In this document: piece by piece, positions 31,433 to 61,765 of the stretch | Position numbering within the stretch: position 1 is the stretch's first letter | How the letters are laid out: every line of letters starts with the position of its first letter | Origin: Streptomyces sp. NBC_01723 | GTDB lineage: Bacteria > Actinomycetota > Actinomycetes > Streptomycetales > Streptomycetaceae | Length of the DNA: 64,000 nucleotides | Assembly (NCBI RefSeq): GCF_036246005.1 | Contig: NZ_CP109171.1 | Coordinates: 4,390,001-4,454,000, forward strand | Direction: 5' to 3' | Position numbers and translations under genes: made by a program | The notes under the pieces: generated by a model | The model's database searches: none | What the model was told of the DNA's origin: nothing | What the model saw: the letters and a program-made list of their open reading frames with translations, nothing else

Positions 31433-31509
31433 GCCGCCTTAGCTCAGATGGCCAGAGCAACGCACTCGTAATGCGTAGGTCTCGGGTTCGAATCCCGAAG
31501 GCGGCTCCA
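31433..31509 (+). tRNA. tRNA-Thr (anticodon CGT), 3' end supplied by element 2
   Basis: A full cloverleaf: acceptor GCCGCCT pairs with AGGCGGC, the D stem and loop hold GCTCAGATGGCCAGAGC, the anticodon arm is ACGCA-CTCGTAA-TGCGT, and the T arm is TCGGGTTCGAATCCCGA. Anticodon CGT reads ACG. CCA is encoded at 31,507-31,509. Bases from 31,465 to 31,507 are repeated at the far end of element 2, so the 3' half now comes from the element and the function is preserved. Confidence 0.97.
31465..31507 (+). repeat. attL core repeat, 43 bp
   Basis: Identical to 60,875-60,917. It starts CTCGTAATGCGTAGG and ends in GGCGGCTC, covering the anticodon loop through the acceptor end of tRNA-Thr, the usual target of tyrosine integrases. 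Confidence 0.93.
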
Positions 31510-31600: not shown

Positions 31601-31621
31601 CGTGAGCGATGCGTGAGCGGA
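31601..31621 (+). repeat. Left arm-type repeat (probable integrase arm site)
   Basis: A 21-bp sequence identical to 60,739-60,759 in direct orientation. It holds two copies of GCGTGAGCG-like 9-mers (the first partly overlapping the edge) separated by AT. It lies 94 bp inside the attL core and ahead of the integrase stop codon, the position expected of a P-arm binding site. Confidence 0.7.
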
Positions 31622-31634
31622 GCCGCCCGGGAAC

Positions 31635-33293
31635 CTACTTCTGGGACTTGCCGCGCTTGGGCTTCTTGGTGCCCTTGCCTGGGGCGTTCGCCTTGGTCTT
31701 CGGCTTGCCGCCCTTCGCCTTGCCGGCGTTCTTGGCCGCAGCCTTCTTGGCCTTCTCCTTCTTCGCGGCCTTCCGTGCCGCCTTCTCGGCCTCGGCCTTG
31801 CGCTGAAGGGGGACCAGCTTCGCGGTCGCCTCGGCGGCGCTCCTGCCGACCTGGGGCAGGACGCTCTGGTAGATGTCCCGAGTGATCCGGGTATCACTGT
31901 GACCGAGGGTGTCCGACACGATCTTGATGTCGATGTCAGCGGCGAGCATCAGGGTGGCGGCGCCGTGGCGGAGGTCGTGCAGACGGATCGGCGGAAGTCC
32001 GGATGCGGCGACGAGACGCTCGAAGAGATCGGTCACCTTGCCCGGGTGGAGCCAGGACCCGTCCTCCTGGGTGAAGACGTTCCCCGTCTCGACCCAGGCG
32101 GTGCCCCACTCCTGGCGGTCGGCCTCCTGCCGCGCACGGTGCCGCTTCAGAACGTCCACGGTGTCGTCGTCGAGGGCGACCACGCGATACCCGCTGTCCG
32201 TCTTGGGATCGGACGCCTCGACCCCCCAGCCGTCCTGCACGAGTTGGGAGGAGACGGTCAGGGCGTGCGTGTCGAGGTTCGTCTCCGACCACGGCTGCCC
32301 GCACGCCTCGCCACGGCGAAGGCCACGGAAGGCGATCAGGTGCCACATCGCGTACAGCCGGTCTTCGGCGACGAAGTCGAGGAACGCTCCTGTCTGCTGC
32401 GGCGTCCAGACCATCACCGGCGACGGCTTCTCGCCCGTCTGCTCCCACTTGGCGACCCGCTCGTCCGTCCACACGAGCGCCTTCGGCTTGCGCACGGGAT
32501 CGATCTCGACGTGGGCGGCGGGGTTGAAGGTGATGATCTGCTGCCCGATCGCGTCGTTCAGGGCCGCGCGGAGGGTGGCCTTGACGTGCTGGCGCGTGGC
32601 GGGGCCGGTGACGCGGCGGAAGGGCGGCATCTCATCGATCGCGATCTTCATCGTCTTCCGGCGGGCGCGATTCTCCCCGCCCTTCCACGGTATGGTCGCC
32701 AGCTCGTCGAGTGCGGCGCGCCGTTGAGCGTTGTCCTCCAGGATCTGGGCGTTCGCGTCGCGGATGTCGGTGAACATCTCGCTGAGGTGGCTCACGCGGA
32801 GCCGGTCCAGGCGGCGGTTCCCGATGTGAGGCTTCAGGTGCACGCGGATGTCGGTCTCGTAGCGGTTGAGGCCGGACTTGCGTATGCGCTTGCCAGCCAG
32901 CCACCGGTCGAGCCACTCGGCCACGGTCAAGCTGCCGATGAGGTCCTGGCCGGAGTGGAGACGCCGCCTCGTCTCCTCGACCTCGGGCAGAGGCGACCGT
33001 TCGCGGCTGACCTCGGCCAGCATCTCGGCGATGAGTTCGGTGCCCTCCGGGTCGTCCGATTCGGCCAGCCCGAGGAGGGCGCGCACGTGGTCGAGGTCGG
33101 CCTGGGCCGCCTTGAGGCTGCTGTACCCGCCTCGGGCGAAGGAGCGCCGACTGCCGTCCTCGCGGGGCGAGAGCTCCTGGCGTACGGAGTAGGTGCAGTG
33201 GTTCCTGCTGTTGCGCTTGGGGCAGGAGGTGCCGAGTTCCTTGCCGGTCTTCGGGTCGCGACAGGAGCAGCGGCGGTAGGTGGAGCCCTTCAA
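31635..33293 (-). CDS. int: Tyrosine recombinase (integrase)
   Basis: A 552-aa phage-type integrase for insertion at tRNA-Thr. After an N-terminal Cys-containing arm-binding region (RRCSCRDPKTGKELGTSCPKR) and a SAM-like core-binding domain around 120-220, the catalytic domain shows Arg in AFRGLRRGEAC (about 322), HxxR in RLHDLRHGAATL (about 439), GHSD, and the Tyr nucleophile in RDIYQSV (about 473). The last 50 residues are a Lys/Ala-rich tail, unusual for the family and possibly DNA-binding. It overlaps the Xre gene by 4 bp, so int expression depends on that promoter. Its 3' end lies next to attL, as in most tRNA-targeted elements. Confidence 0.95.
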   Translation of the reverse strand: MKGSTYRRCSCRDPKTGKELGTSCPKRNSRNHCTYSVRQELSPREDGSRRSFARGGYSSLKAAQADLDHVRALLGLAESDDPEGTELIAEMLAEVSRERSPLPEVEETRRRLHSGQDLIGSLTVAEWLDRWLAGKRIRKSGLNRYETDIRVHLKPHIGNRRLDRLRVSHLSEMFTDIRDANAQILEDNAQRRAALDELATIPWKGGENRARRKTMKIAIDEMPPFRRVTGPATRQHVKATLRAALNDAIGQQIITFNPAAHVEIDPVRKPKALVWTDERVAKWEQTGEKPSPVMVWTPQQTGAFLDFVAEDRLYAMWHLIAFRGLRRGEACGQPWSETNLDTHALTVSSQLVQDGWGVEASDPKTDSGYRVVALDDDTVDVLKRHRARQEADRQEWGTAWVETGNVFTQEDGSWLHPGKVTDLFERLVAASGLPPIRLHDLRHGAATLMLAADIDIKIVSDTLGHSDTRITRDIYQSVLPQVGRSAAEATAKLVPLQRKAEAEKAARKAAKKEKAKKAAAKNAGKAKGGKPKTKANAPGKGTKKPKRGKSQK

Positions 33294-37296: not shown

Positions 37297-38031
37297 TTGA
37301 CGCACGACGAGCACCCGCCTGAAGACACCCATGATGAGACACCTGTGTCGTCGCATTCCCTGACGCTGCTGGGACGTCTACGGCGGGCGTTCGGACGGAC
37401 GGCCCCTGGCGGAGCCAGTAGTACCCCGAGTCCGACTCAAGGCCGGTCTTCGGGGGTCTCCGCCCCGGGGGTGGCGGAGACGGCCCGACGCCAGGGGGCG
37501 CCGGACCAGGGGGTCGGCGCCGAGGGCGGCCCCGACCCGGACACTCTGCACGCTGCCCAGCAGCAGATTCTCCGCCCCGAGCCCGCAGCCACCCCGGCGG
37601 CCGTTGAGCGAGACGTGCAGAGCGTCCAGCCAGCGATCCGTCGTTTCACCGGCACGAAGCGGACCATCCGTGTCGGTCCAATGCGGTTCACCAGCGACGA
37701 GCACGTCAGGCTCCAGGAGGCCGCCGCCGAGCACGGCTACAAGGGGGAGTCCGGTTTCGCCGCCGACATCGTCCTCGCCTTCATCAGCGGCCGGTTCACG
37801 GCGAACCTGCCGCTGTCCGAAGACCGCCGCCGCACTCATATGTTCCGCGCCCAGGTGCTGCGCGAGCTCAACCGCATCGGCGTCAACGTCAACCAGATCG
37901 CCCGCGCCCTCAACAGCGACCTGACTCCGCCCGACATCCGTCACCGTCTCGACGAACTGGACCGCCTGCTGGAGCTGATCGCCGAGGCCCTGCGTGAACC
38001 CGCTGGTGACAGGAAGGACCAGGCCGCGTGA
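37297..38031 (+). CDS. mobC: MobC-type relaxosome protein
   Basis: A 244-aa protein. The first 105 residues are low-complexity. The C-terminal domain (KRTIRVGPMRFTSDEHVRLQ, then MFRAQVLRELNRIGVNVNQIARALN) is a MobC-type domain with a ribbon-helix-helix-like DNA-binding start, which nicks or melts oriT together with a relaxase. The C-terminal HRLDELDRLLELIAEAL helix is typical. TTG start behind GGAG. It overlaps the relaxase gene by 4 bp, the usual MobC-MobA order. Confidence 0.85.
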   Translation: MTHDEHPPEDTHDETPVSSHSLTLLGRLRRAFGRTAPGGASSTPSPTQGRSSGVSAPGVAETARRQGAPDQGVGAEGGPDPDTLHAAQQQILRPEPAATPAAVERDVQSVQPAIRRFTGTKRTIRVGPMRFTSDEHVRLQEAAAEHGYKGESGFAADIVLAFISGRFTANLPLSEDRRRTHMFRAQVLRELNRIGVNVNQIARALNSDLTPPDIRHRLDELDRLLELIAEALREPAGDRKDQAA

Positions 38032-39740
38032 TCGCCGCCATCAAACCGGCCGGGTCCAACACCCGTGGCCTACTCGCCTACCTCTACGGCCCCGGCCGTC
38101 ACGACGAGCACACCGACCCGCACATCGTCGCCAGCTTTGCCATGCTCGGCATGCCCGACCCTGGCCGCGACGAGGACGCCACCCTCACCCAGCTCGCCCG
38201 CCACCTTGACGAGCCTGTCCAGCTCCGGAACAGCGAGTTCGGCAAGAAGGTCACCGACCACGTCTGGCACTGCCCCGTCCGCGCAGCCCCCGAAGACAGT
38301 CGCCTCTCGGACGCCGAGTGGGCCAAGATAGCCCAGCGGATCGTCGAAGCCGCCGACATCGCCCCCGCCGGAGACGACCTCGGCTGCCGTTGGATCGCCG
38401 TACGCCACGCCGACGACCACATCCACATCCTCGCCACCACCGTCCGCGAAGACGGCCGCCGCCCCAGGCTCCACGACAGCGGCGTCCGCGTCGGCGACGC
38501 CTGCCGCCAGATCGAGAAGGACTACGGCCTGCGCCAGCTGAAGAAGGGCGACCTCACGGCCGGACGCCGGTCCACCCAGGCCGAGATGCACAAGGCCGAA
38601 CGGCTCGGCTGGGAACAGACCAGCCGCGACTGGCTCCAGGACCGCATCCGTGCCGCCATTCCCCACGCCAGCAGCGCCGAGGAACTTCTCGCCTACCTCG
38701 AAGCAGACAACATCGCGGTCAAACCCCGCCGCGGACCGTCCGGAGACCTCCTCGGCTACGCCGTCGGCCGACCGGGCGACCTCAACAACGACGGCGAACA
38801 GATCTTCCACCCTGGTGGAAAGATCGCCCCCGACCTCACGCTTCCCAAACTCAAGGCCCGCCTCGAAACCACCGTGCTGGAGGAGCACCCCACCGCCCGC
38901 CGCGACCAACCTGCCACCCCCTGGCACCAGGCCACCGACGCCCTCGACACCCTCCGCACCGACATGGCCGACGACACTCATGCCCAGGCCCACATCACCG
39001 CGCTCGGCGAACTCATCGAAGCGACTGCCCAGAAAGCCCCCGCCCACCTCCAGGCCGAACTCCGAGCCGCGTCACGAGCTTTCGCCCGTGCCCAGCGCTC
39101 CCAGATCCGCGCCGAGAACCAGGCCGCCCACACCCTGCGCACTGCCGCCCGCGACATCGCCCACACCGCCACCGGTCCCGACGCAAGCGTCCTGGCCACC
39201 CTGCTCGCCGCCCTCGTTTGGGCTACGGTCCTCGCCGCCCACTGGCACGACGCGAAGAGCCACGCTCACCAGACCGAAGCCGCCTGCCAGGCCCTTCACC
39301 ACGTTCAGGTGGCAGCCGATCAGGCCCTCACACCTGTTCTCGACGGCCTCGCCACCCGTCAACCGAGCGAGCAGGCTCGCCGGACCCTCGTCCACGACGT
39401 CTGCGCCGCCATCCCCAACCACGCCGACCGCATTCTCAGCGATCCCGCCTGGCCCGCCCTCGCCGCCGTCCTCGCCGATGCCGAAGCCGGCGGCCACGAG
39501 CCCCACCAGCTCCTCAAGGAAGCCGCCGCCCAACGTGAACTCACCACCGCCCGCCAACCCGCACGGGTCCTGATCACACGCATCCAGCACACGAGCCGCA
39601 ACCCGGCGCCGAACCTCCGAGCCGAAGCCGCCCGCCGACGGACCACCATGCGGCTATCCGCGCTTGGACCCGCACTGGATGGGACACAGCCCGCCTCGCC
39701 ATTGGTGTCCGTGCACCCGAACAACCGCCCACGGCGGTGA
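38028..39740 (+). CDS. mobA: Relaxase/mobilization nuclease
   Basis: A 570-aa relaxase that would nick oriT and lead single-stranded transfer. Motif III, the metal-binding HxDxxHxH, is seen as RHADDHIHILA near residues 127-134; a Tyr-containing N-terminal segment (RGLLAYLYGPG) could hold the nucleophile of motif I. The remaining two thirds is a helical region with a hydrophobic patch (LATLLAALVWATVLAAHW). Family is MOBP-like, the class partnered with MobC. GTG start overlaps the mobC stop. Relaxase-driven transfer is uncommon in Streptomyces, where TraB-mediated double-strand transfer dominates. Confidence 0.87.
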   Translation: MIAAIKPAGSNTRGLLAYLYGPGRHDEHTDPHIVASFAMLGMPDPGRDEDATLTQLARHLDEPVQLRNSEFGKKVTDHVWHCPVRAAPEDSRLSDAEWAKIAQRIVEAADIAPAGDDLGCRWIAVRHADDHIHILATTVREDGRRPRLHDSGVRVGDACRQIEKDYGLRQLKKGDLTAGRRSTQAEMHKAERLGWEQTSRDWLQDRIRAAIPHASSAEELLAYLEADNIAVKPRRGPSGDLLGYAVGRPGDLNNDGEQIFHPGGKIAPDLTLPKLKARLETTVLEEHPTARRDQPATPWHQATDALDTLRTDMADDTHAQAHITALGELIEATAQKAPAHLQAELRAASRAFARAQRSQIRAENQAAHTLRTAARDIAHTATGPDASVLATLLAALVWATVLAAHWHDAKSHAHQTEAACQALHHVQVAADQALTPVLDGLATRQPSEQARRTLVHDVCAAIPNHADRILSDPAWPALAAVLADAEAGGHEPHQLLKEAAAQRELTTARQPARVLITRIQHTSRNPAPNLRAEAARRRTTMRLSALGPALDGTQPASPLVSVHPNNRPRR

Positions 39741-48419: not shown

Positions 48420-48571
48420 GGCGTGCTCTGTGCCCCGGACGCTTCTCACTCAAGCCTCACCGGGGGGCGACGCTCGGCGGTTCGAAGCGGTCTCGACAGG
48501 CGCGGACTGGAGGAAAGACCAGGGACGAGAGCCTGGCGCGCGAGTAGGGCTGTGCCAGCAGGCATGCCTGG

Positions 48572-51500
48572 ATGACAATGGTCGACGGGACCGAACGTCC
48601 CCTCGTTTGTCCTATCCGTTCTGATGCTCTTGGAGCTCTCGCCGTGACGCTCTCCGTCCCGCCTTCGCCGACCGCGCTCGAAACCGTGTTCAATCGGGTC
48701 GTCGAGCGCAAGGCTGTCCGAGCCGAAGCGACACTGCAGGCGGACATCCGCCAGTTTCTGCTGGATGCGGACCTCAACCTCGGCGAGCAGGATCTCCTCA
48801 CACCCGTGCTGGAAGCGCAGGTGGGCGGTGGCACCGGTCACCGCATCGATATTGAGATGGGCGCGACCGTCATCGAGGTCAAGAAGGACATCAGCCGCCC
48901 AAAGATCCGCAAGGACGCGGTCGCGCAGCTAGCGAAGTATGTGCGTGCCCGAACAGAGCAGCGCGAGCGGCGGCACGTCGGGATCCTCACTGACGGCGCG
49001 GACTGGCGCGCCTACACGCTGGTCAACAACGAGCTGAATGAGGTCAACCATTTCGATGCCCGGGAGCGCAACGTCAGGTCGCTGGACTTGGTCCGGTGGC
49101 TCGAAGGCGTCCTAGCAACGTCCGAGGGTGCCGCACCTACACCAGATGCCATTGCAACCCGCCTCGGAGCGGACAGCGTCGCACACTCCATCGACAAGGC
49201 GGTTCTGGCTGCGCTGTACGAGGAGAACAAGAGTCTGCCGACCGTTCAGCTGAAGCGCGACCTGTGGTCTCGGTTGCTGCGCAGTGCACTGGGCGCCCAG
49301 TTCGAGGACAGCGACGATCTGTTCATCGAGCACACGCTCCTCGTGAATACCGCCTCGATCATCGCCCACGCGGTGATGGGCATCCCCGTGAAGGACACCC
49401 CGCCCGCTTCCTTGGTCAACGGTCAGCTGTTCACCCAGGCGCGGATCTCGGGTGTTGTCGAGTCGGACTTCTTCGGCTGGCCGCTGGAGATTGAGGGCGG
49501 CGAGGGGTTCATTCAAGACTTGTCTCGTCGCCTCGCCGGCTTCGACTGGTCGAGGGTCGAGCACGACGTACTGAAGGTTCTGTACGAGTCGGTGATCGCC
49601 GCCGAGACCCGTAAAAAGCAAGGAGAGTACTACACGCCAGACTGGCTGGCGGAAGCGACGGTGACCGAGGCAGTCCCCGATCCGCTGAACCTGCGGATCA
49701 TGGACCCGTCGTGTGGTTCCGGCACGTTTCTCTTCCACGGCGTCCGCCGCTATCTGGCAGCCGCACGGGACATCGGGCTGCCGCTGCGAGAGGCGCTGGA
49801 TGGGCTCCATGACCATGTCGCCGGCATCGACCTCCACCCGGTTGCTGTGGCGCTGGCCCGCGTCACGTACCTCCTCGCCATCGGCCGCGAGACGCTTACC
49901 TCTGAGGAGCGCGGCCCGATAAACGTCCCTGTCTACCTGGGAGACAGCCTCCAGTGGGACCAGCGCACCGACCTCATCGACCACGGCCACCTCGTCATCC
50001 AGACCGGCACAGGGAACCAGCTTTTCACTAACGAACTGCGCTTCTCCGAAGACTTGCTGCGCGACGCCGGCCGCTTCGACGCGATCGTGAACGAGCTCGC
50101 CGACAAGGCCGCCGACCCGTACCGGGTTAAAGGAAAGCTGCCCTCTCTCGTTGCGCTCTTCAATCGGCATGGGATCTCTAACGCAGACGACCGTGAAGAG
50201 CTGACAGACAACTTCCGCGTCCTGTGCGACCTGGTTGACGAGGGGCGCAACCACATCTGGTCCTATTACGTACGCAACTTGGCTCGCCCTATGTGGCTTT
50301 CCCGTGCTGAGAACCGTGTTGACATTCTCGTCGGCAATCCGCCCTGGCTGTCCTACAGGCACATGCCAGGCGACATGCAGAAGACCTTCAAAGACATGAT
50401 GCAGGCCCGCGGTCTGTGGAAGGGTTTTGAGGTCGCCACCCACCAGGACCTTTCTGGTCTGTTTATCGCTCGCGCTGTCCAGCAGTACCTACGGGAGGGC
50501 GGTTCTTTTGCCTTCGTCGTCCCCAATCCCGTGCTGGATCGCCCCTACTGGACCGGTTTCCGCAGCGGAGAATGGACTGATCCCGACCACCCCGTCAAGG
50601 TCAACTTCACCGGTTCCTGGGATTTGCGCCGGCTACGTCCTCACTTCTTCCCTCGCGCTGCCGCCGTCATTTTTGGCCGCCGCCGCCCTCTCGCCATCGG
50701 TCAGCAGGGCAACAATGCCGTTGCGTTGCCCAAGGCAACCGAGATCTGGACCGGAAAGATCGCCAAGAGTGCGGCTCATTGGGAACGCGCCAAGGGCTGG
50801 ATCACGCGGAAGTCGGGTGAGTTGCGTTACCCAAAGGAAGGGCTGATCAACTCGCCGTACCGGGACCGTTTTGCGCAAGGGGCTATCGTTGTCCCCAAGG
50901 TGCTCTTCTTCGTCAAGGAACAGGCTGCCAGCCCGCTCGGTCTCGGCGGCGGCCGAGTCTCGGTCCGTTCACAGCGCAGCGCTTTGGAGAAGAAACCCTG
51001 GAAGGAACTTCCCGACCGGGAAGGATCGGTGGAGAAGGAGTTTGTCCGGCCCGTCCTGCTCGGAGAGCACGTCGTTCCCTATCGGGTCATGGGCGCAGAC
51101 AAGGTAGTCCTGCCCATCGAGGGGGCGAATACCCTCATGGACGGTGAGCATGACCACCTCGATCGCTATCCGGACCTGGCGAAGTGGTGGCGAGACGCCG
51201 AACGACTCTGGGATGACAACCGCTCCAGCGAACGACTTTCCTTGATCGAGCAACTCAACTTCAGAAAGAAGCTGACTGATCAGCTCCCCGGTGCTCCCCT
51301 CCGGGTGGTGTACGCGAAGGCTGCCATGTACGTCACCGCAGCGCTGGTGGACGATCCGAATGCGATCATCGATCACAAGTTGTACTGGGGAACTGTCGCC
51401 ACTCGCGAGGAGGGCATGTACCTGCTGGCGGTATTGAACTCGGCCTACACCACTGAAGTCGTGCGTCCACTCATGTCCTACGGCAAGGACGAACGGGACA

Positions 51501-51724
51501 TCGACAAAGCCGTCTGGGAGCTACCCATCCCGGACTTCGATCCGGCTGACGCCAAGCACGCACGAATCGCTGAGATTGGTGAGGCCGAGCATCAGCGGAT
51601 CGCGGAGCTGAAGTTCGAAGACGGCAAGAGCTACATCCAGATCCGTCGGACCCTGCGCGACTTCCTTCTCAGCTCCCCCGACGCCGAGGAACTGGATCAA
51701 CTGGTCACTGAACTACTCGGCTGA
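48572..51724 (+). CDS. Type IIG-like restriction-modification protein (nuclease plus N6-adenine methyltransferase)
   Basis: A 1,050-aa protein with three parts. The N-terminal 220 residues hold a PD-(D/E)xK-like pattern (HRIDIEMGATVIEVKKDIS, residues about 91-106). Residues about 330-650 are an N6-adenine methyltransferase with motif I IMDPSCGSGTFLFHG (about 377) and motif IV DILVGNPPWLSY (about 588). The C-terminal 350 residues look like target recognition and end EELDQLVTELLG. Layout fits type IIG or PglX-like enzymes. The start is uncertain between 48,572 and about 48,644. It faces the pPIWI operon across a bidirectional hairpin, and its GC content looks lower than the flanks, suggesting separate acquisition. 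Confidence 0.82.
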   Translation: MTMVDGTERPLVCPIRSDALGALAVTLSVPPSPTALETVFNRVVERKAVRAEATLQADIRQFLLDADLNLGEQDLLTPVLEAQVGGGTGHRIDIEMGATVIEVKKDISRPKIRKDAVAQLAKYVRARTEQRERRHVGILTDGADWRAYTLVNNELNEVNHFDARERNVRSLDLVRWLEGVLATSEGAAPTPDAIATRLGADSVAHSIDKAVLAALYEENKSLPTVQLKRDLWSRLLRSALGAQFEDSDDLFIEHTLLVNTASIIAHAVMGIPVKDTPPASLVNGQLFTQARISGVVESDFFGWPLEIEGGEGFIQDLSRRLAGFDWSRVEHDVLKVLYESVIAAETRKKQGEYYTPDWLAEATVTEAVPDPLNLRIMDPSCGSGTFLFHGVRRYLAAARDIGLPLREALDGLHDHVAGIDLHPVAVALARVTYLLAIGRETLTSEERGPINVPVYLGDSLQWDQRTDLIDHGHLVIQTGTGNQLFTNELRFSEDLLRDAGRFDAIVNELADKAADPYRVKGKLPSLVALFNRHGISNADDREELTDNFRVLCDLVDEGRNHIWSYYVRNLARPMWLSRAENRVDILVGNPPWLSYRHMPGDMQKTFKDMMQARGLWKGFEVATHQDLSGLFIARAVQQYLREGGSFAFVVPNPVLDRPYWTGFRSGEWTDPDHPVKVNFTGSWDLRRLRPHFFPRAAAVIFGRRRPLAIGQQGNNAVALPKATEIWTGKIAKSAAHWERAKGWITRKSGELRYPKEGLINSPYRDRFAQGAIVVPKVLFFVKEQAASPLGLGGGRVSVRSQRSALEKKPWKELPDREGSVEKEFVRPVLLGEHVVPYRVMGADKVVLPIEGANTLMDGEHDHLDRYPDLAKWWRDAERLWDDNRSSERLSLIEQLNFRKKLTDQLPGAPLRVVYAKAAMYVTAALVDDPNAIIDHKLYWGTVATREEGMYLLAVLNSAYTTEVVRPLMSYGKDERDIDKAVWELPIPDFDPADAKHARIAEIGEAEHQRIAELKFEDGKSYIQIRRTLRDFLLSSPDAEELDQLVTELLG

Positions 51725-51750
51725 GAAGCCCTGCGCTTCAATCGGTCGGT

Positions 51751-51782
51751 TCCCTTCCCCGCCTCTGGAGGCGGGGAAGGGA
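51751..51782. terminator. Bidirectional terminator between the methyltransferase and pPIWI genes
   Basis: A perfect 14-bp stem (TCCCTTCCCCGCCT and complement) with a CTGG loop, between two convergent stop codons. Confidence 0.85.
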
Positions 51783-51871
51783 CGGTCCGCGGATTGGACC
51801 CCGTCATGCCCACCGATCACCGACAGGGTGGCGCGGACGGTGATGTTAAGCGGCACCCAACGCCGACCCCT

Positions 51872-54691
51872 CTAATCTGCGGCTCCTGCCTCCGCTCCTT
51901 CTCCGTCTCCAGTCCCTGGCTCCGCATCGACTGCCTCACGCCGGTACTGCGGATGGTCAAGGTCCATTTGCCGTGCCGCATGCAGCGACACCGGATAGCG
52001 GGCGCGGTCGGACCAGAACAGCGTCTGGTGGCACAGGCGTGCGGTCATGGCCGCTAGCGCCTCACGCGCCCCGTCTGACGGGCCCCCGATGGGGAGGATC
52101 TCGGTGGCGGTCATGGCGTAGAAGTTCTGCGGCATCTCGCCTTTGCGGCGCTTCGACCGGTCCTCTGACTGCACGGATTTCTCCGCCTCCCACCGGGTTC
52201 GCTTGGAGCCCAGTCGGCCGGCGCCGCTGCCGTCGTAGGCGCGAGGCACATTGCACAGCAGCCATACTGGCGTTCCGAAGTCCGTGTCGACTTCGAAGAG
52301 CAGCGTCGAGGTGTCCTTCTCAGCGGGTTCGGCGCCGTCCTTCTTGCCCAGGTGGGTGACGCTGACGGGCTGTGGCACTTCTTCGTCGTCCGTGTTGAGG
52401 CGGATGACGGCCAGCGGGGCGTCCTGGCCGAGGCGTGCTCCGGGGAGCTGGTATCGGCTGCGGTTGCCGTCAGTTCCTGCCTGCGCGAGATGTTCGCCGA
52501 GGCGAAGGTTCTGCAAGCCGTCCCACATGCGTCGCGCGGACTGCGCGTCCACGGTGACTGTGTAGGGCAAGCCGTCCAGCTCGTCGGTGAGGTCGCCGAG
52601 GGCGCGCTCCACCATATCGGCTGCACCGTCCCACTTCTGCCGATAACTCGTGGTCTCCGCGGAAGGTTCGGGATATGGGTGGGTGTGGAAGGCGTTCTGA
52701 GCCGAGCGGTACGGCCGCCATACCGGTGCCGTGGAACTCCAGCCGAGTAGGGACCATGCCCCTTCCGGGGACTGGGGCGGGACCAACGCGGTGGCCGTAA
52801 TGACGATCTTGGGTTCGCCCTTCTCGCCGTAGCGTCGGTTCTGCTGTCGTACATGCACGCCGACATGGGCCAGCCGGTCGACCGGGAATCCGCTCGTGCC
52901 CTGAAGAGCATTGGAGATCCGCTCGTCAGTGATGCCGAGGGAGCGGTACAGGTCGAGCAGAGCCATCTGCGCCGGGTGATCTTCGCGGGGCGGCTCGATG
53001 ACACCTTCCTTTCCGCGGCCCATCAGGTACTGCGACGAAACGTCGAGGCGAGCCAGGATCGCCTTCGTCTGCGGCTTGGCATCCAGATCGTCCAGGTCAC
53101 GAGTGTCGATGCCAGGGAAGTCATCGGCGTGCGGCAATTCGGTCTCGCACCACGCGCCGATCAGGACACCGTCACGGGGCCTGAGCGAGGCGCTCACAGC
53201 CCCCAGCGCTTCTGCCCGGTCCCGCCCGCGACCCGGCCGCAGGAAGTCCGGCACGTAATGGAAGGCGGCTGTGATGCGGCCCTGGTAGAGGTCGAGCTCG
53301 ACGCCCTCCTGGGTGTCAAGGCCGACGGGGCTGAGTTCGAACGCGTGGCAGAACGTCTGCAGCATGCGCTGCCGGGTCTCGTCCCGATACCACAGGCAAG
53401 CGATGCGGAGCTTCTTGAAGCCGGCCTCGGCGACGGAGACGCAGAGCGACTCTGCTGACGGGAAGAGGCTGCCCCGCGGGCGCAGTGGCTCCTTGCTGCC
53501 GGTGCGCTCGCGCTCCTCCTTGCGGCGCTTATACTCCTGGGCCGAGACCTTTTCAGGGTCGGTGGGGCGTCGCGGCAGGGTCATCGCGGACTGGCGCAGG
53601 GACAGCCGCTGGGCATCATCGCCGAAGACAGCGTCTGCGTGAGCACGCAGGAGCCTCAGGTGGTGCATGCCCACGCCCGTTCCGATGGGGTGTTGGTAGT
53701 TCTTCGCGGGGATGGGCCAGATCTGGCCCGGGTGCTCGCGGGGGAACTGAAGCTTCTCCTTGAAAGCCCTGGCCCGCTCGCGAAGCTTCTGCTCGCGCTC
53801 GGAACGCTTGGCGATGGACTGCAGAATCGAGTAGTCCATCTCCAGTCGGCCGAGCGCTTGCAGGGTCTGCCGCGGGATCGTCTTTGTGCCGCCGCGCCCG
53901 TTGAGCTTGACTTCCAGGATCGGGCGGCCCTCTCCGGGCTGGACGGCAAGTGCTGTGGAGCTGAAGATCAGCGAGGACGAGATGCGGGAGACGCGCGCGT
54001 CCAAGAGCAGCACGGGATGCTGCACGTTCGGCAGGGTCTTGAGACGCACCGCCGTTCGGCACACGGCGTAGCGACCGCCGCTCTCGTTCTCCCAGGGATC
54101 GTCCAACGCCACCAGGCCACCGGTGATATCGGGACGCAGTGTGATCTCTCGGCCGTTGGAGAGCTGGAAGGGAACGGCTGCGAGACGCTCTGCCAGCCCC
54201 CACCCCACGCTCTTGTAGAGCCAGTTAGGGGCATCCGGTTGTGCTCCCTTGGCCCCCGCCAAGTGCTCCCCCAGAGCGAATTCCTGCTCCGGAGTCCTCG
54301 CGATGCGCACCGCGAGAGCGGGCGGCTGCCTCAGGTCGATCACCTCTACCTGTTCACCGAGGGCGAGGCCGTACGTCAGGGTGAAGGCTTTGCACAGCAG
54401 ATCGCTGTCGATCGGCTGCCGGGATACCAGGAACGGCGCCGCGCCCTTGGGCTCGAAGTACACATACCCGCCAGTGATCACCTGGAGCACGGTCGTGGCG
54501 ATGGTGTACGGAGCTTGGGCCTCCTCCTTGCCGAAGCGCTTCCTGCACTGAGCGGTGAAGGTGGCCCACAGCTTGGCCGTCTCCGTGTCCAGCTGGCGCA
54601 CGTGAACCGTCGCGTCGCCCACCAGAGCGGGAGTGCAGCGGTAAGCCAGTGTGTGCAGGTACTTGCCCGGCTCGAGGTTCTGGTCGTTCAC
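51872..54691 (-). CDS. Prokaryotic PIWI protein of the pPIWI-RE family
   Basis: A 939-aa protein with the layout of pPIWI-RE proteins: an N-terminal region (about 1-330), a MID-like part from about 400 with TAAFHYVPDFL and KLRIACLWYRDETRQRM, and a C-terminal RNase-H-like domain of about 350 residues. Family-type features I see are LIGAWCETELPHADDFP, AILARLDVSSQYLMG, KIVITATALV, YTVTVDAQSARRMWDGL, an Arg-Glu segment AVIRLNTDDEEVPQPV and the late strand NFYAMTATEILPIGG that may supply the signature Glu. It is preceded in the operon by an Fe-S helicase and a nuclease, the three-protein set predicted as a nucleic-acid-guided defence. GTG start behind AAGAGAAGAGACG, 15 bp after the helicase. Family call is by recognition; guide use is unproven. 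Confidence 0.85.
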   Translation of the reverse strand: MNDQNLEPGKYLHTLAYRCTPALVGDATVHVRQLDTETAKLWATFTAQCRKRFGKEEAQAPYTIATTVLQVITGGYVYFEPKGAAPFLVSRQPIDSDLLCKAFTLTYGLALGEQVEVIDLRQPPALAVRIARTPEQEFALGEHLAGAKGAQPDAPNWLYKSVGWGLAERLAAVPFQLSNGREITLRPDITGGLVALDDPWENESGGRYAVCRTAVRLKTLPNVQHPVLLLDARVSRISSSLIFSSTALAVQPGEGRPILEVKLNGRGGTKTIPRQTLQALGRLEMDYSILQSIAKRSEREQKLRERARAFKEKLQFPREHPGQIWPIPAKNYQHPIGTGVGMHHLRLLRAHADAVFGDDAQRLSLRQSAMTLPRRPTDPEKVSAQEYKRRKEERERTGSKEPLRPRGSLFPSAESLCVSVAEAGFKKLRIACLWYRDETRQRMLQTFCHAFELSPVGLDTQEGVELDLYQGRITAAFHYVPDFLRPGRGRDRAEALGAVSASLRPRDGVLIGAWCETELPHADDFPGIDTRDLDDLDAKPQTKAILARLDVSSQYLMGRGKEGVIEPPREDHPAQMALLDLYRSLGITDERISNALQGTSGFPVDRLAHVGVHVRQQNRRYGEKGEPKIVITATALVPPQSPEGAWSLLGWSSTAPVWRPYRSAQNAFHTHPYPEPSAETTSYRQKWDGAADMVERALGDLTDELDGLPYTVTVDAQSARRMWDGLQNLRLGEHLAQAGTDGNRSRYQLPGARLGQDAPLAVIRLNTDDEEVPQPVSVTHLGKKDGAEPAEKDTSTLLFEVDTDFGTPVWLLCNVPRAYDGSGAGRLGSKRTRWEAEKSVQSEDRSKRRKGEMPQNFYAMTATEILPIGGPSDGAREALAAMTARLCHQTLFWSDRARYPVSLHAARQMDLDHPQYRREAVDAEPGTGDGEGAEAGAAD

Positions 54692-54706
54692 TCGTCTCTT
54701 CTCTTT

Positions 54707-57700
54707 TCAGTGGGTGAGGGTCGGGTCGATGCCCGCGTAGGACAGGAAGGCATTGAGGGCTTCCCCGTACAGGTCGTTCATCTGCCGCTTCACCGCCGGC
54801 GGCCACTGCTCGTGGATGCGACGCAGGACGGTTTCCAGGTCGGAGCTCCAGGTGTCCTCGTGGAAGGCGTAGTCGACCAGGTGCAGGACGGCCTCGGTAC
54901 CACCACGACGGGCCCGTCCGGCCAGCTGGATCAGGTCGACGACGACACCCGCGACAACCTCCTCCTGGAGCGACTTGGGCATGGAGGTGAACTGGGGTGT
55001 CGCGCGCAGGATCAGTTCGAGCCGTTGCCATGCGGCGGTGCGTGCCTTCTCCCACGCGTCGTCGGGGTTGGCGGTGCCGCCCTCTGGGAGTGCGTGCAGC
55101 CCGGCGGCGTTGACACTGGCGTACATCTCCGCGGGTTCGGCGAACAGCGCCAAGGGCCGGACGCAGAGGTAGACCGAGCGCACGGCGGAACGGATACCGA
55201 CCACGATGTTCAGACCGCGGGCGATCAGGGCCAGGGGGACGACCAGGACGTTGCCGTACTGCGGGAAGTCCTCGAACTGCTCGGCCGTGAGGCGAGTGGC
55301 GATGTTCTCCCGAGGTAGGTCGGGGTCGGGGCTGTGCCGGTCGCCGTCCCGCACGGCCACGCAAAGCCCTTCGCGGTAGGTGCCGGCCTGGGCGATGCCT
55401 CGGGCCAGCCAGGCACACTGCTGGTAGGAGTTGGCCACGACCAGGACGTGCGCGCGGTCCTTGTCCTTGGCACGCTGTCGCTCCAGCTCTCGGTAGATGT
55501 ACTGGTCGTACAGCTCCGTGCCGAGCTCGATCAAGGCGCCCTTCTTGCGGCTCGGATGCTGGCCCGAGATCTTGATCGGCTCGCCGTACATGGGGTGACC
55601 CTCGCCGTACTCGATACGGTGGCGTCGAGCGCGGATCGAACGGGCCTGGGCATCAGTCATCCACCAGCGCACGGGCGCGTGGACGTGCTCGCGTACCGCC
55701 TGGGGAAAGTACGCCGTGGCGGACAGGCCCATGACGGGACGCTCGACCCCAGCCAGGCACAGCGAGACAAGACCGCCCAGCTCGGCGGTGAAGGTGTGCG
55801 GGTCGCCCGCGATGCTCTGCGCGACAAGTTCGGCGTCGCTCTCCCTCTTGTCCAGGCCGGTTACGCGATATCCCGTGATTGAGCGCCCCAACAGGCCAAG
55901 CGGGAGGACGGCCGAGACGGCACTCGGGCTGAGCGTCTCGGCGATCCGCTGCGCGGAGCGAAGGCCGGAGGGGCGGTAGTGCTGCACGCAGGTGCGCAGT
56001 TCGGAGAGCGCCTCGTCCAGCTCGGTCAGGGTCGCCCGGGTGACGAGCAGGTTCACCGCCTGGGCACGCTGGTGCGGGTCCTTCACCCGTGACTCCAGCA
56101 GCCGGTGCAGATCGAGCTTCACAGCGTCGAGCAGTTGTTGGCCACGCGGGGCCACCAGCGCCTCCAGAGCGCGGCGCATCTCGTCCCACCCCACCTCCGT
56201 CGGATCGCTCTCCGTGGCGCGTGGCTGCAGGTAGCGGGCGGGCATGAGGCCCTGGAGGCGTCGAGCGAGGTCGGCTGGAAGATCAGTCTCCCCGGAGGTG
56301 GCCAGGTCCGGCCAGAGCAGACGGATCAGCTGCCGGTCACGGCCACGGGCCAGGTGCCAGCGCAGCCCGGTGCGGTCCGGCACACGATTCTCCGCGCGCT
56401 CGTCCTCCCTGACATCCAGACGCAGCGCGTTGCTGCATACGGCGAGCAGCAGGAACTCCGCCATCAGACGTACCTGGCCGACCGACGGCAGCAGGTCGGC
56501 CTCGGCCGAGATCGGCAGCCGCTTCGCGTCCGTGTCCATCTCCTGCGGGGCCGCCGTCCAGTGCCTGCGTGAGTGCAGGACGACCTCGCCGGCGCATCGA
56601 TCCACCGCCCTCGACTGGAACTGGTCGACCTCGTCGACGAGGACGGCGTGGCAGGTGCGCAACGCGAATTCGGCAACGCTCACCCCCTGAACGGGGCGCC
56701 CGTCAAGGTTCACGCCGATGCGCAGGTTGCCCTGGAGAAAGGCGAAGTGATTCGTCACGACCACGTGCGCCGAACAGGCTTCGTATACGGGGGCAAACTT
56801 GCCGCAGGTGGGAATCCAGGGACAGGCGGACGCACCCAAGTTCTGCCGGTACAGGGACAGGCAAGGCTCACGGCCGGGCGGATAGTCGGCGTTGGACTCC
56901 AGCAGTGGTCGCTGGGCGCACCCGTAGGAGAGCGGATCCACGTCCCGTTCGCCGCTCTCTCCCCACTCTCCCGGTGCCTGCGGGTCCTCGTCGATGAGAC
57001 GGGCCAGCTTGTGCGCGCGCTCGTGCATGCCTGATGACGACATCAGGTGCGCACAGCCGGTCTCGTGCTTGATGACGCCGAGGCCCTGCAGGACGCGCAG
57101 GTCGGACCGGATCTTGCGGGTGATGGCCAGGCACGCCTTGATGTCGGGCAGCACGATGGCCACCCGGTGGCCCTGCTGGGCGAACCATGCGGCCAGGACG
57201 CGCACCAAGACGCTCTTGCCCGTCCCGGTTGGCGCGTGGAAGATCTCCAGGCCGCCGGCCGTCATCCGCAGCGCTTCCTGTGGGCTGATGGAGTCGGACG
57301 TCTGCAGGACGGAGAACAGGCCCTTGAGGACCGCGTGGAGGTACCGCTTCTCCTCCGGCTCACCGCTCTCGATCTGCGCCGCCAGTTCGAGCAGGTCCTC
57401 CGTAGGGATACGGAGGTTGTCCAGCGGGGGTGCGGTGGCGATGTGCGGCAGGCGGTCGTGGCCGAACGCCTCGGTGAAGCCGGGATACGTGGGGATCGTC
57501 AGCTGGCCATGTACCTGCCCGACGCCCCGCACGCTGATCTCCCCCGTCTTCCAGACTCCGGGGCCGGCGAACTCAGGGGGCTTCACCCGCGCGCTGGGCC
57601 GCCGATACCGGGCGATCTGCCGATCGACGTAGGCCAGCAGGTCACCGCCGACCCGGGGGATGGCTGCCTCGGCAGTGAGCGGGTCTCCACCTGCGGGTTC

Positions 57701-58018
57701 GAAAGTGAGCAGCTTCTGGGGCTCACCAGGGTCCTCGTCACCGAGGGCTGTGAGCAGTGCGCGGGCGGCGGGAGTGAAGTTGCGTACGTCGCCGAACTTG
57801 CTGGGGGCGGTGCGGTACACGTCGACGATGCGTCGGCGTTCTTCGCTCGTCAGCTCCGGCCAACGGTCCCAGGCCCGGAACTGGCCGGACAGCAGGAAGG
57901 CCGCCTTCCGGAAGGGGGCAGCGGGCGCATCGTTGTCCACGGACGTGGCAGGGAAGTAGTAGGCAGCCAGTGCGAGTGAGGCGCACAGGGCTGTTTGTTC
58001 CACGGATGGCTCGCTCAC
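54707..58018 (-). CDS. DinG/XPD-type Fe-S helicase of the pPIWI-RE module
   Basis: A 1,103-aa superfamily 2 helicase. Walker A is FHAPTGTGKSVLVRVLA near 268, then four Cys in an XPD-like insert (CAQRPLLE about 364, REPCLSLY about 383, ACPWIPTCGKF about 400) that should bind an Fe-S cluster, VVVTNHFAFLQ, and Walker B CHAVLVDEVDQF near 462. The C-terminal RecA domain holds VPLALIARGLNIV and VVVDLIQLAGRARRGG, the motif VI arginines. The N-terminal 240 residues are an extra module not found in DinG. GTG at 58,018 overlaps the nuclease stop (GTGA). It would unwind DNA or R-loops for the PIWI protein; inferred from the family. Confidence 0.85.
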   Translation of the reverse strand: MSEPSVEQTALCASLALAAYYFPATSVDNDAPAAPFRKAAFLLSGQFRAWDRWPELTSEERRRIVDVYRTAPSKFGDVRNFTPAARALLTALGDEDPGEPQKLLTFEPAGGDPLTAEAAIPRVGGDLLAYVDRQIARYRRPSARVKPPEFAGPGVWKTGEISVRGVGQVHGQLTIPTYPGFTEAFGHDRLPHIATAPPLDNLRIPTEDLLELAAQIESGEPEEKRYLHAVLKGLFSVLQTSDSISPQEALRMTAGGLEIFHAPTGTGKSVLVRVLAAWFAQQGHRVAIVLPDIKACLAITRKIRSDLRVLQGLGVIKHETGCAHLMSSSGMHERAHKLARLIDEDPQAPGEWGESGERDVDPLSYGCAQRPLLESNADYPPGREPCLSLYRQNLGASACPWIPTCGKFAPVYEACSAHVVVTNHFAFLQGNLRIGVNLDGRPVQGVSVAEFALRTCHAVLVDEVDQFQSRAVDRCAGEVVLHSRRHWTAAPQEMDTDAKRLPISAEADLLPSVGQVRLMAEFLLLAVCSNALRLDVREDERAENRVPDRTGLRWHLARGRDRQLIRLLWPDLATSGETDLPADLARRLQGLMPARYLQPRATESDPTEVGWDEMRRALEALVAPRGQQLLDAVKLDLHRLLESRVKDPHQRAQAVNLLVTRATLTELDEALSELRTCVQHYRPSGLRSAQRIAETLSPSAVSAVLPLGLLGRSITGYRVTGLDKRESDAELVAQSIAGDPHTFTAELGGLVSLCLAGVERPVMGLSATAYFPQAVREHVHAPVRWWMTDAQARSIRARRHRIEYGEGHPMYGEPIKISGQHPSRKKGALIELGTELYDQYIYRELERQRAKDKDRAHVLVVANSYQQCAWLARGIAQAGTYREGLCVAVRDGDRHSPDPDLPRENIATRLTAEQFEDFPQYGNVLVVPLALIARGLNIVVGIRSAVRSVYLCVRPLALFAEPAEMYASVNAAGLHALPEGGTANPDDAWEKARTAAWQRLELILRATPQFTSMPKSLQEEVVAGVVVDLIQLAGRARRGGTEAVLHLVDYAFHEDTWSSDLETVLRRIHEQWPPAVKRQMNDLYGEALNAFLSYAGIDPTLTH

Positions 58019-59262
58019 GACCAGGCCACCCCCGAACGCTCGCAGACCATCTCGCCGAACTCGGACGCCGTGGCTACCTTCAGCCCGTACTTCGCCCCCA
58101 CTCCCGACAGCAGGTGCACCTGGCTGGCGCGCTGGTCTGGAACCACCAGCCACTCTGCTCCCCCGCTATCGCCTTCCTGTGCGTGGATCAGTTGCGCGAG
58201 CGCGGTGCCCGAGGTGTAGTCCTTCACGTCCACGCGCACAGGCTCCTTCTTCCGCGCCCGCTTGCGCCCGACGTGTACACACAGGTCGTAGGCGTCCAGG
58301 GCGGGCCACAGCTCCACCTTGAGGCCACGTTCGACCAACCGGTCCCGCAGCGCCAGCTCCGCCAGCCCGGGGACGCAGGTGTACCGCCACACACCCCGCA
58401 CCAGAGCCTTATGCCCCTCCACGGGTTTCGCCTCCGGGACGTACTCCAGGTCGGGCCAGAGGACTGCTTCCCGCTCGTCCGGGGGAGGCGGAGGCGGCCC
58501 CGGCAGTAGCTCGGGCGGAACAATCCCCTCGACCGGGCGGAAGCGATACGTGGCGCCCATTTCCTGGTGCGGCGTGTGCCAGCAGGCGACCACCCCGATC
58601 TGCTGCCCCGCCTCACGACGCAGTGCGACGCGCATCGGCCACCGGCATACGGGGCACGCGAACCACCAGTCCCGGTACCTCGAGGCATAGGGGATGTCCT
58701 CGTACAGATCCGCGACCATCGGAGGCAGCCTCAGTTCACTCAGCTCGCTCACCGGGCCCGCCGGGTAGCGGATCAGATCGGTACGTCCGCTCTCGTAGAC
58801 CTTCTGATTACCCGCCTTGCACAACTGGGCGAAGGCCGTTTCCTGCGCAACCTCGTCGTCCAGGTCCTGCCCACTGAGCAGGCCGGCACCTCGGCCGCCC
58901 TTCTGCAGGATGCGGAGCACCAGGCGCTGCTCCGCGGCGATATCGAAGGCGTCCTCCGTCACGTGCCCGTCGGCATCGACCGCGCGCAGTTCGTCGACGT
59001 CCCACCCAGGGACACCTTCGGGCAAGAGCCGGGAGGGATCACCGCGCACCTGACGCCGGAAGTCCGCAAAAGACAGCTCACTGCCCGGTCCGCGCGCCGC
59101 CAGCAGCGCGCCGTGGCACTCCATCAAGACCCCGAGGCGAGCGGAAGGACTCACGCCGGGCGCCGTCATCGCGTTGGCCGCACGCAACACCGAGCGTGCC
59201 ACCAGGGACTTCACCCATAGCTCATCGGTCGGCCGAACGCCATTGTTCGTCGCGTTCCTCAT
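58015..59262 (-). CDS. PD-(D/E)xK nuclease of the pPIWI-RE module
   Basis: A 415-aa protein with a central zinc ribbon (FACPVCRWPMRV, VVACWHTPHQ) and a C-terminal restriction-endonuclease fold: Asp in WPALDAYDLCVHVG (about 324) and the DxK strand VRVDVKDYTSG (about 346). This fits the REase that accompanies pPIWI-RE genes. The first 180 residues are helical and may contact its partners. It is probably the effector that cuts invader DNA. It overlaps the helicase gene by 4 bp, and 60 bp separate it from the upstream Xre gene. Confidence 0.85.
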   Translation of the reverse strand: MRNATNNGVRPTDELWVKSLVARSVLRAANAMTAPGVSPSARLGVLMECHGALLAARGPGSELSFADFRRQVRGDPSRLLPEGVPGWDVDELRAVDADGHVTEDAFDIAAEQRLVLRILQKGGRGAGLLSGQDLDDEVAQETAFAQLCKAGNQKVYESGRTDLIRYPAGPVSELSELRLPPMVADLYEDIPYASRYRDWWFACPVCRWPMRVALRREAGQQIGVVACWHTPHQEMGATYRFRPVEGIVPPELLPGPPPPPPDEREAVLWPDLEYVPEAKPVEGHKALVRGVWRYTCVPGLAELALRDRLVERGLKVELWPALDAYDLCVHVGRKRARKKEPVRVDVKDYTSGTALAQLIHAQEGDSGGAEWLVVPDQRASQVHLLSGVGAKYGLKVATASEFGEMVCERSGVAWS

Positions 59263-59322
59263 GAGCCCAGAGGGTAAGAGCTGCCACTGACAATTCGTCG
59301 GGCGTCGTACGGAAGAGACGGA

Positions 59323-60615
59323 TTATGAGTGTTCGCCAGCGAGCGCCGCGACGCCCGTGGTATCAACCTGCGGATACCGACGGCGGTACTCGTCCAAGTA
59401 CTCAACTGCGTGCCGCAGCCCGACCGGGGTCAGCTTCCACCGGTATCCGACGACGTGACTCCCGTCGTCGGCAACTACCGGCACATCGTCGATGAATCCC
59501 CGGCTCGGCCGCCCTGCAGACCGGTTCTTGTAGCCGACGCCCAGATAGAACGGAGCCCGGCCAGACAGTGCATCCCGCTCCAGCCCTTCCGGGCCCGCCT
59601 CGGCCACCCGGGCCATGACGCCCCACAGCCACTCAGACAGCAGAGGCATGTCCGGCTGCTGCTTCGCGCGCTCGCCCAGTCCAGCGCGGGCGGCTGCCCT
59701 GCCCCGCCTCGTCATCTCCACCCGAACCCTGGTCACCTCGCCAGCTTCAGCGTGATGCACCACATCAGTGCTGGTCACCAGGAGTCCTCGGCGTGCCAAA
59801 GCGTGCAGCGTTGCGCCGGCTCCAGGGTCGTGGACTCCATTGCGCCGCAAGCGTTCCTGCAGCCGCGTGTAGCCCACGACATCCGCTGGCGCGTGGAGAG
59901 CGAGGGGAAGCTTGCGCCACTCCGCTGGGCGAGGCACGGGCAGATGATGCGTTCGGCGCATCCACATTTCCGTCTCCGTCATGCGCTCGTCCCGCAGGAT
60001 CTCACCGAGGTAGACCTGCTGCCGTTCGTTCAACGATCGCCAGGCAACCTCGGCCGAGTCGCTCGAACGCCTCTGTGGCTGACGCCTCGGACGTACGGGC
60101 GCCGATTCATTTGGACGGGAACGCATCCAAGCGTCTACGACCATGCGCACAGGCACGCCATAAATCTTGGCGAGCGCGGCGGGAAATCGCCCCACCACGT
60201 CGCGATCACGCCAATTCCGCCCCACCATGGGGCGCCCCTGTTCCAAGGCGGAGAGCCTAGGCGCCGACAGGCACAGGTCGCGCCCGACGGGCATCCGACG
60301 GAGCATCTCCACCGCCTGATCGAGCGTCAGCCCAGCAGTGAATCTCAGGTCGACGAGCCCCTCTTCGCCACGGCGAACCCCAGTGAGCTCCTCCACATCG
60401 CAGTGCAGCGCCGCCGCCATCCTCTGTAGCCGCTGCGGAGTGGGCGTGTGTCGCCCCTGCTCGTAGAAGAACACCATGCGTGTCGAGACCCCGATTCGCC
60501 GGGCAAGTTCAGCCTTCGACATCCCCGCACGCTCCCGCAGCGCCACGAGGCGGCTGGGAGTTATCACGCGAACAGGCAAGGGCATCTCTCCATGAAACTG
60601 CAATGAAGACTTCAT
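59323..60615 (-). CDS. Xre-family regulator of the pPIWI-RE operon
   Basis: A 430-aa regulator. The first HTH is at about residues 22-78 (MSKAELARRIGVSTRMVFFYEQGRHTP in parts). A second, degenerate HTH-like unit follows (LCLSAPRLSALEQGRPMVG), then a winged-helix-like domain (LHALARRGLLVTS) and a C-terminal HTH/wing. First gene of the operon, 60 bp from the nuclease gene. A 13-bp palindrome covers its start codon, consistent with autorepression. An alternative ATG at residue 11 is possible. Such length and domain number are unusual for a simple repressor, so it may also sense a ligand. Confidence 0.78.
   Translation of the reverse strand: MKSSLQFHGEMPLPVRVITPSRLVALRERAGMSKAELARRIGVSTRMVFFYEQGRHTPTPQRLQRMAAALHCDVEELTGVRRGEEGLVDLRFTAGLTLDQAVEMLRRMPVGRDLCLSAPRLSALEQGRPMVGRNWRDRDVVGRFPAALAKIYGVPVRMVVDAWMRSRPNESAPVRPRRQPQRRSSDSAEVAWRSLNERQQVYLGEILRDERMTETEMWMRRTHHLPVPRPAEWRKLPLALHAPADVVGYTRLQERLRRNGVHDPGAGATLHALARRGLLVTSTDVVHHAEAGEVTRVRVEMTRRGRAAARAGLGERAKQQPDMPLLSEWLWGVMARVAEAGPEGLERDALSGRAPFYLGVGYKNRSAGRPSRGFIDDVPVVADDGSHVVGYRWKLTPVGLRHAVEYLDEYRRRYPQVDTTGVAALAGEHS
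60603..60615. promoter_or_regulatory. Palindrome over the start codon of the defence regulator
   Basis: ATGAAG-A-CTTCAT, a perfect 6-bp inverted repeat including the ATG of the Xre gene. It probably is the operator of that protein. The other Xre gene of the element (33,991) has the same arrangement with a different sequence. Confidence 0.5.
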
Positions 60616-60738
60616 GGCAATGGACCTACCGCCGTCGACTGCGAACGGATGCTTCGCCAGCCTGTGACCGACCCGGTCCGTGGGTTCCCTGTGATCGACT
60701 CTGCAGGTGCTCCTTGCTGAGCTACAGCCTGGAATCTA

Positions 60739-60759
60739 CGTGAGCGATGCGTGAGCGGA
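60739..60759 (+). repeat. Right arm-type repeat
   Basis: Identical 21 bp to 31,601-31,621, in direct orientation, 115 bp inside the attR core. The circular form of the element would place these two sites on either side of the attP core at similar distances. The 259 bp between the regulator and attR otherwise hold no clear gene. Confidence 0.7.
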
Positions 60760-60874
60760 CGGGGCGGCATGTGGTGGAAGGAGCAGCACGAGCGGATCCG
60801 GCACCACTTTGCTGACCTGCGACAAAAGGATCTGACGGCGGCTGGCGACACCCGCTGTCACGATCTTGCAGGCC

Positions 60875-60917
60875 CTCGTAATGCGTAGGTCTCGGGTTCG
60901 AATCCCGAAGGCGGCTC
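60875..60917 (+). repeat. attR core repeat, 43 bp
   Basis: Identical to 31,465-31,507 (tRNA-Thr anticodon loop to acceptor end). It is not a tRNA: the 5' half is missing. This is the displaced chromosomal 3' end. Confidence 0.93.
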
Positions 60918-60923
60918 AGCGGT

Positions 60924-60955
60924 AAACCCCAGGTCAGGCTTCTGACCTGGGGTTT
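60924..60955 (+). terminator. Displaced native terminator of tRNA-Thr
   Basis: A 14-bp stem AAACCCCAGGTCAG and complement with a GCTT loop, followed by T-rich sequence. It differs from the copy after attL in the loop and one stem base pair, so this is most likely the original chromosomal terminator. Confidence 0.8.
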
Positions 60956-61765
60956 CTTGTTTCTGATGACCTTTGGAACGAGATAAGTCGGGCACAGTTC
61001 GGCTCTGGCCGTGATGCGTAGGTCGCGAGCTTCGCTTTGCTGCCGCCTATGAGCTCCGGCAAGGCTCTGACCTGCTGTTCTGGTGCAGTCCAATCCTTCG
61101 GTGACTGCTTGGTCGCTTGCTCCGGTGGACAGATGGTGGACAGCCGGTGGACAGGCGTGCTCGGCGGCAGGGAAGGGGAAGGTACGCCTTCCGAGGAGAG
61201 GAGGGGGAGGCTTCGGATGCCTGCTGGGAAGCGCCCGGCCGGAGCACTTCCTGTGCTGGTCCGACATAGGGAAGAGCTCTGAAATAGCAGCTGTCTGACG
61301 CTGATCGACCAGCAGCCTGCTGCTCGGCTTCGGTCGTTATGCCGAGAGCGTGCTCGTCAGGCCGCACATACCCGGAGGAAGGCGCAGGCGGGCGTGGGCC
61401 AGTAGCGAGAGCAGGGGCGGACCACTACGAGCCGGGCCGCCTGGCGTGGGGCCGGGTTCTCAACTCGTGTCATCGATGGATGTCGAACCATATGGTCGGC
61501 ACAGTCTGGCTGATCCTGTCCCTGATGCCGACACCGAGGATCGCACCTTGCTGACTGGGGTGTGTTGCGCCATGTCTCCGAGCCTGCGCCGAACGGACAG
61601 CGCGCCGCCAGTACTGAGACCTCGGCGTCAATATCAAGGTGCGCTGGCGTCAGCGTCCCGAGGTGCGGTCGCCTCCTCCATCTGAGAACTGGTCGGCTTT
61701 GTCCCCTCGATCAGAAAAGGACCCTGCAACGCAGGGGAGGGAGGGGGGAGGCACCTTGCGGATGA
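60956..61765. other. Non-coding stretch right of element 2
   Basis: About 810 bp with only short, overlapping ORFs on both strands, none with a recognised domain, good start signals or coding-like codon bias. It may hold an old boundary of the tRNA locus or regulatory DNA. I see no gene, repeat array or strong hairpin that I can support. Confidence 0.5.

Follow-up and report, generated by a model that had tools for sequence, protein, structure and literature searches.

Do four tightly spaced genes of Streptomyces sp. NBC_01723 form a complete pPIWI-RE system, and which of their products would find an invader, cut it and control the response? The prediction of pPIWI-RE systems dates from 2013, and a search of openly licensed PMC papers found one biochemical study since. 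The present locus offers a complete and compact cassette in a tractable genus, together with a candidate operator on which regulation could be tested.

The ORF listing of the 64-kb stretch of DNA analyzed here (the window) gives four minus-strand genes at the coordinates of the initial annotation, encoding an Xre regulator, a REase, a DinG-type helicase and a pPIWI-RE protein. The close packing described there also stands, but the gaps of 4-60 bp become 60, −4 and 15 nt with refined starts. A blastn comparison of window positions 48001-64000 with six named relatives revealed the operon as one block (81-97% DNA identity) in five of them (L003-L007) and in two pieces in the sixth (L008). In the five, the left edge of the block falls at 51867-51901 and the right edge at 60621-60653, the widest common block being 51867..60653 (minus strand); the rest of the compared interval has no match to any of the six at 1e-6. 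Pfam (PIWI protein and REase) and PADLOC (helicase) assign the parts to pPIWI-RE families, and the PIWI and REase family matches, from 1e-22 to 1e-64, are well outside chance. Positions 51867-60653 are a real and complete four-gene pPIWI-RE operon, which upholds the module initially read there.

The gene order REase, DinG, PIWI, tightly spaced here, is the same throughout 34 loci: the window, 27 Streptomyces loci and the six named relatives. For this set, 28 of the 36 other PIWI-matching Streptomyces genomes were taken; eight with short partial PIWI matches (G013, G046, G055, G089, G090, G175, G262 and G284) were left out, and L074 was dropped because it is the same contig as L004 (S. glomeratus DSM 41457). 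By nearly all tested features, the operon belongs to the known pPIWI-RE family. It shares with the three-gene system, as described in the sections available of Burroughs et al. (PMC3702460): (i) the order REase, DinG, pPIWI-RE with overlapping or close ends, and (ii) the zinc ribbon, the Fe-S cysteines, the added helix after the beta-meander and the R and E positions. Unlike that system, it is headed by a separate Xre gene, whereas the main text of that paper, as far as it was available, does not use the term Xre and has an HTH fused to the REase. Furthermore, the Y (REase) and Z (DinG) domains gave no match here at Pfam E 0.01, although upstream regions of fitting length are present and both domains were detected in another system of the same genome. 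This second, very different pPIWI-RE system (L045:2793-13771; G000:C1 ~2316.8-2327.8 kb) comprises a PprPDDEXK nuclease, a REase with a Y domain, a DinG with a Z domain and a 1015-aa PIWI protein; a 286-aa protein encoded downstream had no match in Pfam (E 0.01) or PADLOC (1e-5).

Which protein could cut DNA? The REase (58015..59262, minus strand, 415 aa) matches PF18154 (pPIWI_RE_REase) at 1.7e-22. Its zinc-ribbon-like residues C203, C206, C227 and H232 and its PD-(D/E)xK residues D326, D345 and K347 are kept in all 34 loci, as are R160 and D323, bearing out the earlier call of a PD-(D/E)xK nuclease with a zinc ribbon. The REase family was found in 30 of the 31 PIWI-bearing genomes searched, the exception, G089, carrying no more than a broken PIWI fragment. 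Given this conservation of residues and family, the REase is the sole predicted working nuclease of the operon. The helicase (54707..58018, minus strand, in an ORF extending to 58153) matches PADLOC PprDinG at 1e-96 across residues 237-1137 and has no Pfam match above any cut-off. Its start is most likely GTG 58018, which overlaps the REase stop by 4 nt, rather than 58153; this gives 1103 aa, a form that the relative L005 also carries. The P-loop Lys and the four Cys are kept in 31/31 usable ORFs (L005, L008 and L058 excluded from the 34) and the DE-x-D motif is also conserved, in agreement with the XPD/DinG-type helicase with four cysteines recognized at first.

The pPIWI-RE protein (51872..54691, minus strand, GTG start) has the 939 aa and the PIWI-like nature initially ascribed to it. 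It comprises an X/N-terminal domain, a putative MID domain and a PIWI domain of RNase H type: PF13032 (RNaseH_pPIWI_RE) matches at 3.1e-64 (218 bits, cut-off 25) and PF13111 (pPIWI_RE_X) at 1.8e-34 (120 bits, cut-off 30.5), whereas the MID domain PF18157 (1.5e-4, 22.5 bits) lies under its cut-off of 26.6 in a region spanned by the Argonaute alignment range. A PDB sequence search with the single protein and with its profile matched no Argonaute; by fold comparison, its AF2 model is Argonaute-like and matches Argonaute structures. In this model, strands 608-617, 628-637 and 647-652 are followed by a helix (661-669), corresponding to the extra helix after a three-stranded meander. Residue counts were made on 140 rows: the window, 115 relatives (those of 860-1060 aa among 120 listed, out of 147 matched in all) and ORFs from 24 of 25 loci, L001 having yielded none. 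The R and E of the sheet extension, assigned by strand order and not by alignment to the published pPIWI-RE set, would be R764 (139/140 rows) and E864 (114/140). H613 appears to occupy the position of the first catalytic Asp, with Asp there in 0/140 rows, whereas the second, D715, is kept in 130/140. By strand order, the RNase H site thus holds H613 and D715 and not the two Asp of the active PIWI-RE type. As one acidic residue for cutting appears to be missing, the protein is predicted to be nuclease-dead.

In Pseudomonas stutzeri, the gene of the PIWI-RE protein (PsPIWI-RE) likewise adjoins genes for DinG and a nuclease. PsPIWI-RE is active as a nuclease, and deleting it gives a ciprofloxacin phenotype; defence is not shown in the sections available of that study (PMC10991935). 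It has both catalytic Asp, whereas the first is predicted to be His here; H613 appears to correspond to its D525, as read from strand order and not from an alignment with PsPIWI-RE. It is very improbable that the present protein still cuts through other residues while the REase merely processes guides. Such activity would fit the retention of D715 and the cutting of ssDNA with RNA guides by PsPIWI-RE, but the first Asp is absent from every row, the REase residues are invariant in the 34 loci, and changing either Asp of PsPIWI-RE abolished cutting according to the text, or significantly reduced it according to the abstract (PMC10991935, as far as available). Judged from sequence, the operon is a distinct subtype within pPIWI-RE, led by Xre and with a PIWI protein predicted to be nuclease-dead.

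What would control it? The Xre regulator (59323..60585, minus strand) carries an N-terminal Cro/C1 HTH (Pfam HTH_3, 4.9e-14), so its initial identification holds, but its length may be 420 aa, from ATG 60585, instead of the 430 aa given from ATG 60615. The former start is favoured because ATG 60615 lies inside a palindrome and because many relatives have 419-422 aa. The predicted model of this protein, with a pTM of 0.36, gives no assignment for its C-terminal part, and its VIA rows mostly span residues 15-82 and so hardly probe the remainder. By tblastn, an Xre gene lies directly upstream of the REase in 21/34 loci; inspection by eye of the upstream ORFs of the 13 other loci revealed no apparent common regulator. 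In a PIWI tree of 33 rows, excluding L008 (broken PIWI frame) and rooted for drawing only, the 20 Xre-bearing rows lie on one side of a single branch (100/100; 0/500 shuffles as low), with a warning that long branches may have falsely joined the Xre-less L052, L057 and L065-L067. The six named relatives are close by construction since they were fetched with the PIWI protein of the window. L008 (Allosalinactinospora lopnorensis) keeps open REase and Xre frames.

Searching 291 Streptomyces genomes with an Xre profile gave matches in 19 at 1e-20. Sixteen are strong (at least 266 bits) and each adjoins a pPIWI-RE REase: 14 are near full length, one is shortened (G079) and one is in two pieces (G080; locus L059, with stops). 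The three others are partial (79-108 bits) and lie in genomes outside the PIWI-matching set. Among the matches listed, 25 contigs are common to the PIWI and Xre lists, compared to a mean of 0.13 after jittering, in a coarse check that equated contigs by size and took in 120 PIWI and 117 of 118 Xre entries; contigs with both, among these matches, include Nocardia, Frankia, Kribbella, Saccharothrix and Micromonospora. A literature search (openly licensed PMC papers, no preprints) found no paper on an Xre regulator of pPIWI-RE.

The candidate operator is a 23-bp imperfect palindrome, TTGCCATGAAG-T-CTTCATTGCAG (60598..60620, minus strand), proposed from its conserved place and covariation. With up to three mismatches allowed, its 22-bp core has a single occurrence in the genome. 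The palindrome of the window scores at least 9 of 11 pairs, which 43 of 2000 shuffles also do, so that it is the covariation that bears the operator claim. The palindrome upstream of the operon covaries among loci (L055, L058 and L059 omitted from the count), with the tool's warning that rows that are related can score above shuffles even when no constraint acts. It is weak in L051, L053, L068, L007 and L008, where it scores 6-7 of 11 pairs or is outscored by one elsewhere, and different in L055; L058 and L059, in both of which the Xre match is shortened, have none at the corresponding place.

Taken together, how would these proteins act? We moderately favour a system of guide-directed restriction: the PIWI protein, nuclease-dead by prediction, would locate the invader, and cutting would fall to the REase. 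Xre would bind the palindrome and hold the operon low until an invader comes; PIWI, loaded with a short guide, would pair either with the DNA of the invader or with an R-loop formed by transcription; DinG would unwind the hybrid or travel along it; and the REase would then cleave the DNA. The roles of finder, unwinder and cutter are drawn from motifs, and that of switch from the palindrome. Burroughs et al. had proposed R-loop-directed restriction for pPIWI-RE (PMC3702460, sections available), a proposal sharpened here for this clade into a non-cutting PIWI finder and a REase cutter. This prediction separates guided restriction from slicing by an Argonaute. A more tentative extension is that the immunity is gated by a repressor: Xre might silence the operon through a private palindrome, an invader might lift this silence and the predicted nuclease-dead PIWI might then direct helicase and nuclease. 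If true, sensing, guiding, unwinding and cutting would be divided among four separate proteins in an actinobacterial subtype.

Alternatively, recognition of a target by PIWI could free the REase on all DNA, including that of the host, and kill the cell (abortive infection). We hold this to be rather unlikely, since a helicase of DinG type points to the target being unwound and restricted locally. To our knowledge, long-B pAgo systems have no DinG helicase. These systems, whose Argonaute belongs to a different family, resemble the present one in joining a full-length, catalytically inactive Argonaute (inactivity being predicted here) to a separate effector, and they act by abortive infection, which speaks for this alternative (PMC10620215, sections available). 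Guide-directed restriction also recalls the antiplasmid systems ApsAB, which removes plasmids, and DdmDE, where an Argonaute-like protein is paired with helicase and nuclease activities; according to the available text (PMC11096173), both activities reside in one protein there, whereas they are split between two genes here, with a helicase of DinG type.

How is the operon carried? The initial annotation placed it on a mobile element, which is supported by identical 43-bp direct repeats at 31465..31507 (plus strand, in the 3′ part of a tRNA-Thr gene, 31433-31509) and 60875..60917 (plus strand) and by three gene families: a tyrosine integrase (31635..33293, minus strand; Phage_integrase, 3.1e-16), a MobC-like mobilisation protein (37297..38031, plus strand; MobC, 8e-9) and a relaxase (38028..39740, plus strand; Relaxase, 6.6e-10). 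By its gene content, established from 10 scanned ORFs, this element is probably mobilisable at most; as its cargo, the operon would also protect it against competing plasmids and phages. The conspecific genome G277 aligns at 94-97% with window positions 26111 (left of the tRNA gene) to 48456 and then carries ~19.6 kb of other DNA until the same att site, where five of nine scanned ORFs match DndA/SspA, DndB, DndC, DndD/PbeC and a second PbeC-type ATPase (L047:5111-20000, L048). The presence of Dnd-type genes there and of pPIWI-RE here indicates that this slot (48457..60917) swaps defence-type genes. If the gated reading is true, a distinct repressor-gated subtype would spread as interchangeable cargo of mobilisable elements.

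This distribution bears on a role in DNA repair or replication, such as clearing R-loops or stalled forks, as proposed for PsPIWI-RE. The greater ciprofloxacin sensitivity and the filaments of the P. stutzeri piwi-re deletion mutant (PMC10991935) and the action of DinG helicases on R-loops (PMC3702460), both as given in the sections available, would suit such a role. However, presence is patchy (any PIWI match in 37/295 Streptomyces genomes, none in the conspecific G277), relatives share the operon as a block amid unrelated flanks, and it occupies a slot holding Dnd-type genes elsewhere; a repair role instead of defence is therefore improbable. Plasmid matches came from 15 records, all Streptomyces, at 25-32% identity. 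A phage origin was also considered: no phage record matched, and the 15 pattern matches obtained by scanning viral contigs with a profile include no relative.

Besides the operon, the slot carries a type IIG restriction-methylation enzyme (48572..51724, plus strand, 1050 aa; PADLOC REase_MTase_IIG, 5.9e-78), which converges on the operon and shows by eye an N-terminal D..EVK-like nuclease motif. It is unlikely to be a fifth component, since tblastn found no match in L003-L008, flanks included up to 10 kb, and it would be separate defence cargo. In two relatives, the operon is flanked by other genes of defence type: an OLD-family ATPase-TOPRIM protein and a second ATPase (L006:13373-17681), and type I HsdM/HsdS (L007:660-3579). 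A third att copy with two mismatches (84365-84407 in window numbering) bounds a second tandem stretch (60918 to 84407; L049, L050) that has a sensor kinase gene near its start, and the sequence common with the G277 chromosome resumes past it. Finally, a short direct repeat, CGTGAGCGATGCGTGAGCGGA, lies near both ends of the element (31601-31621 and 60739-60759) and possibly represents integrase arm sites.
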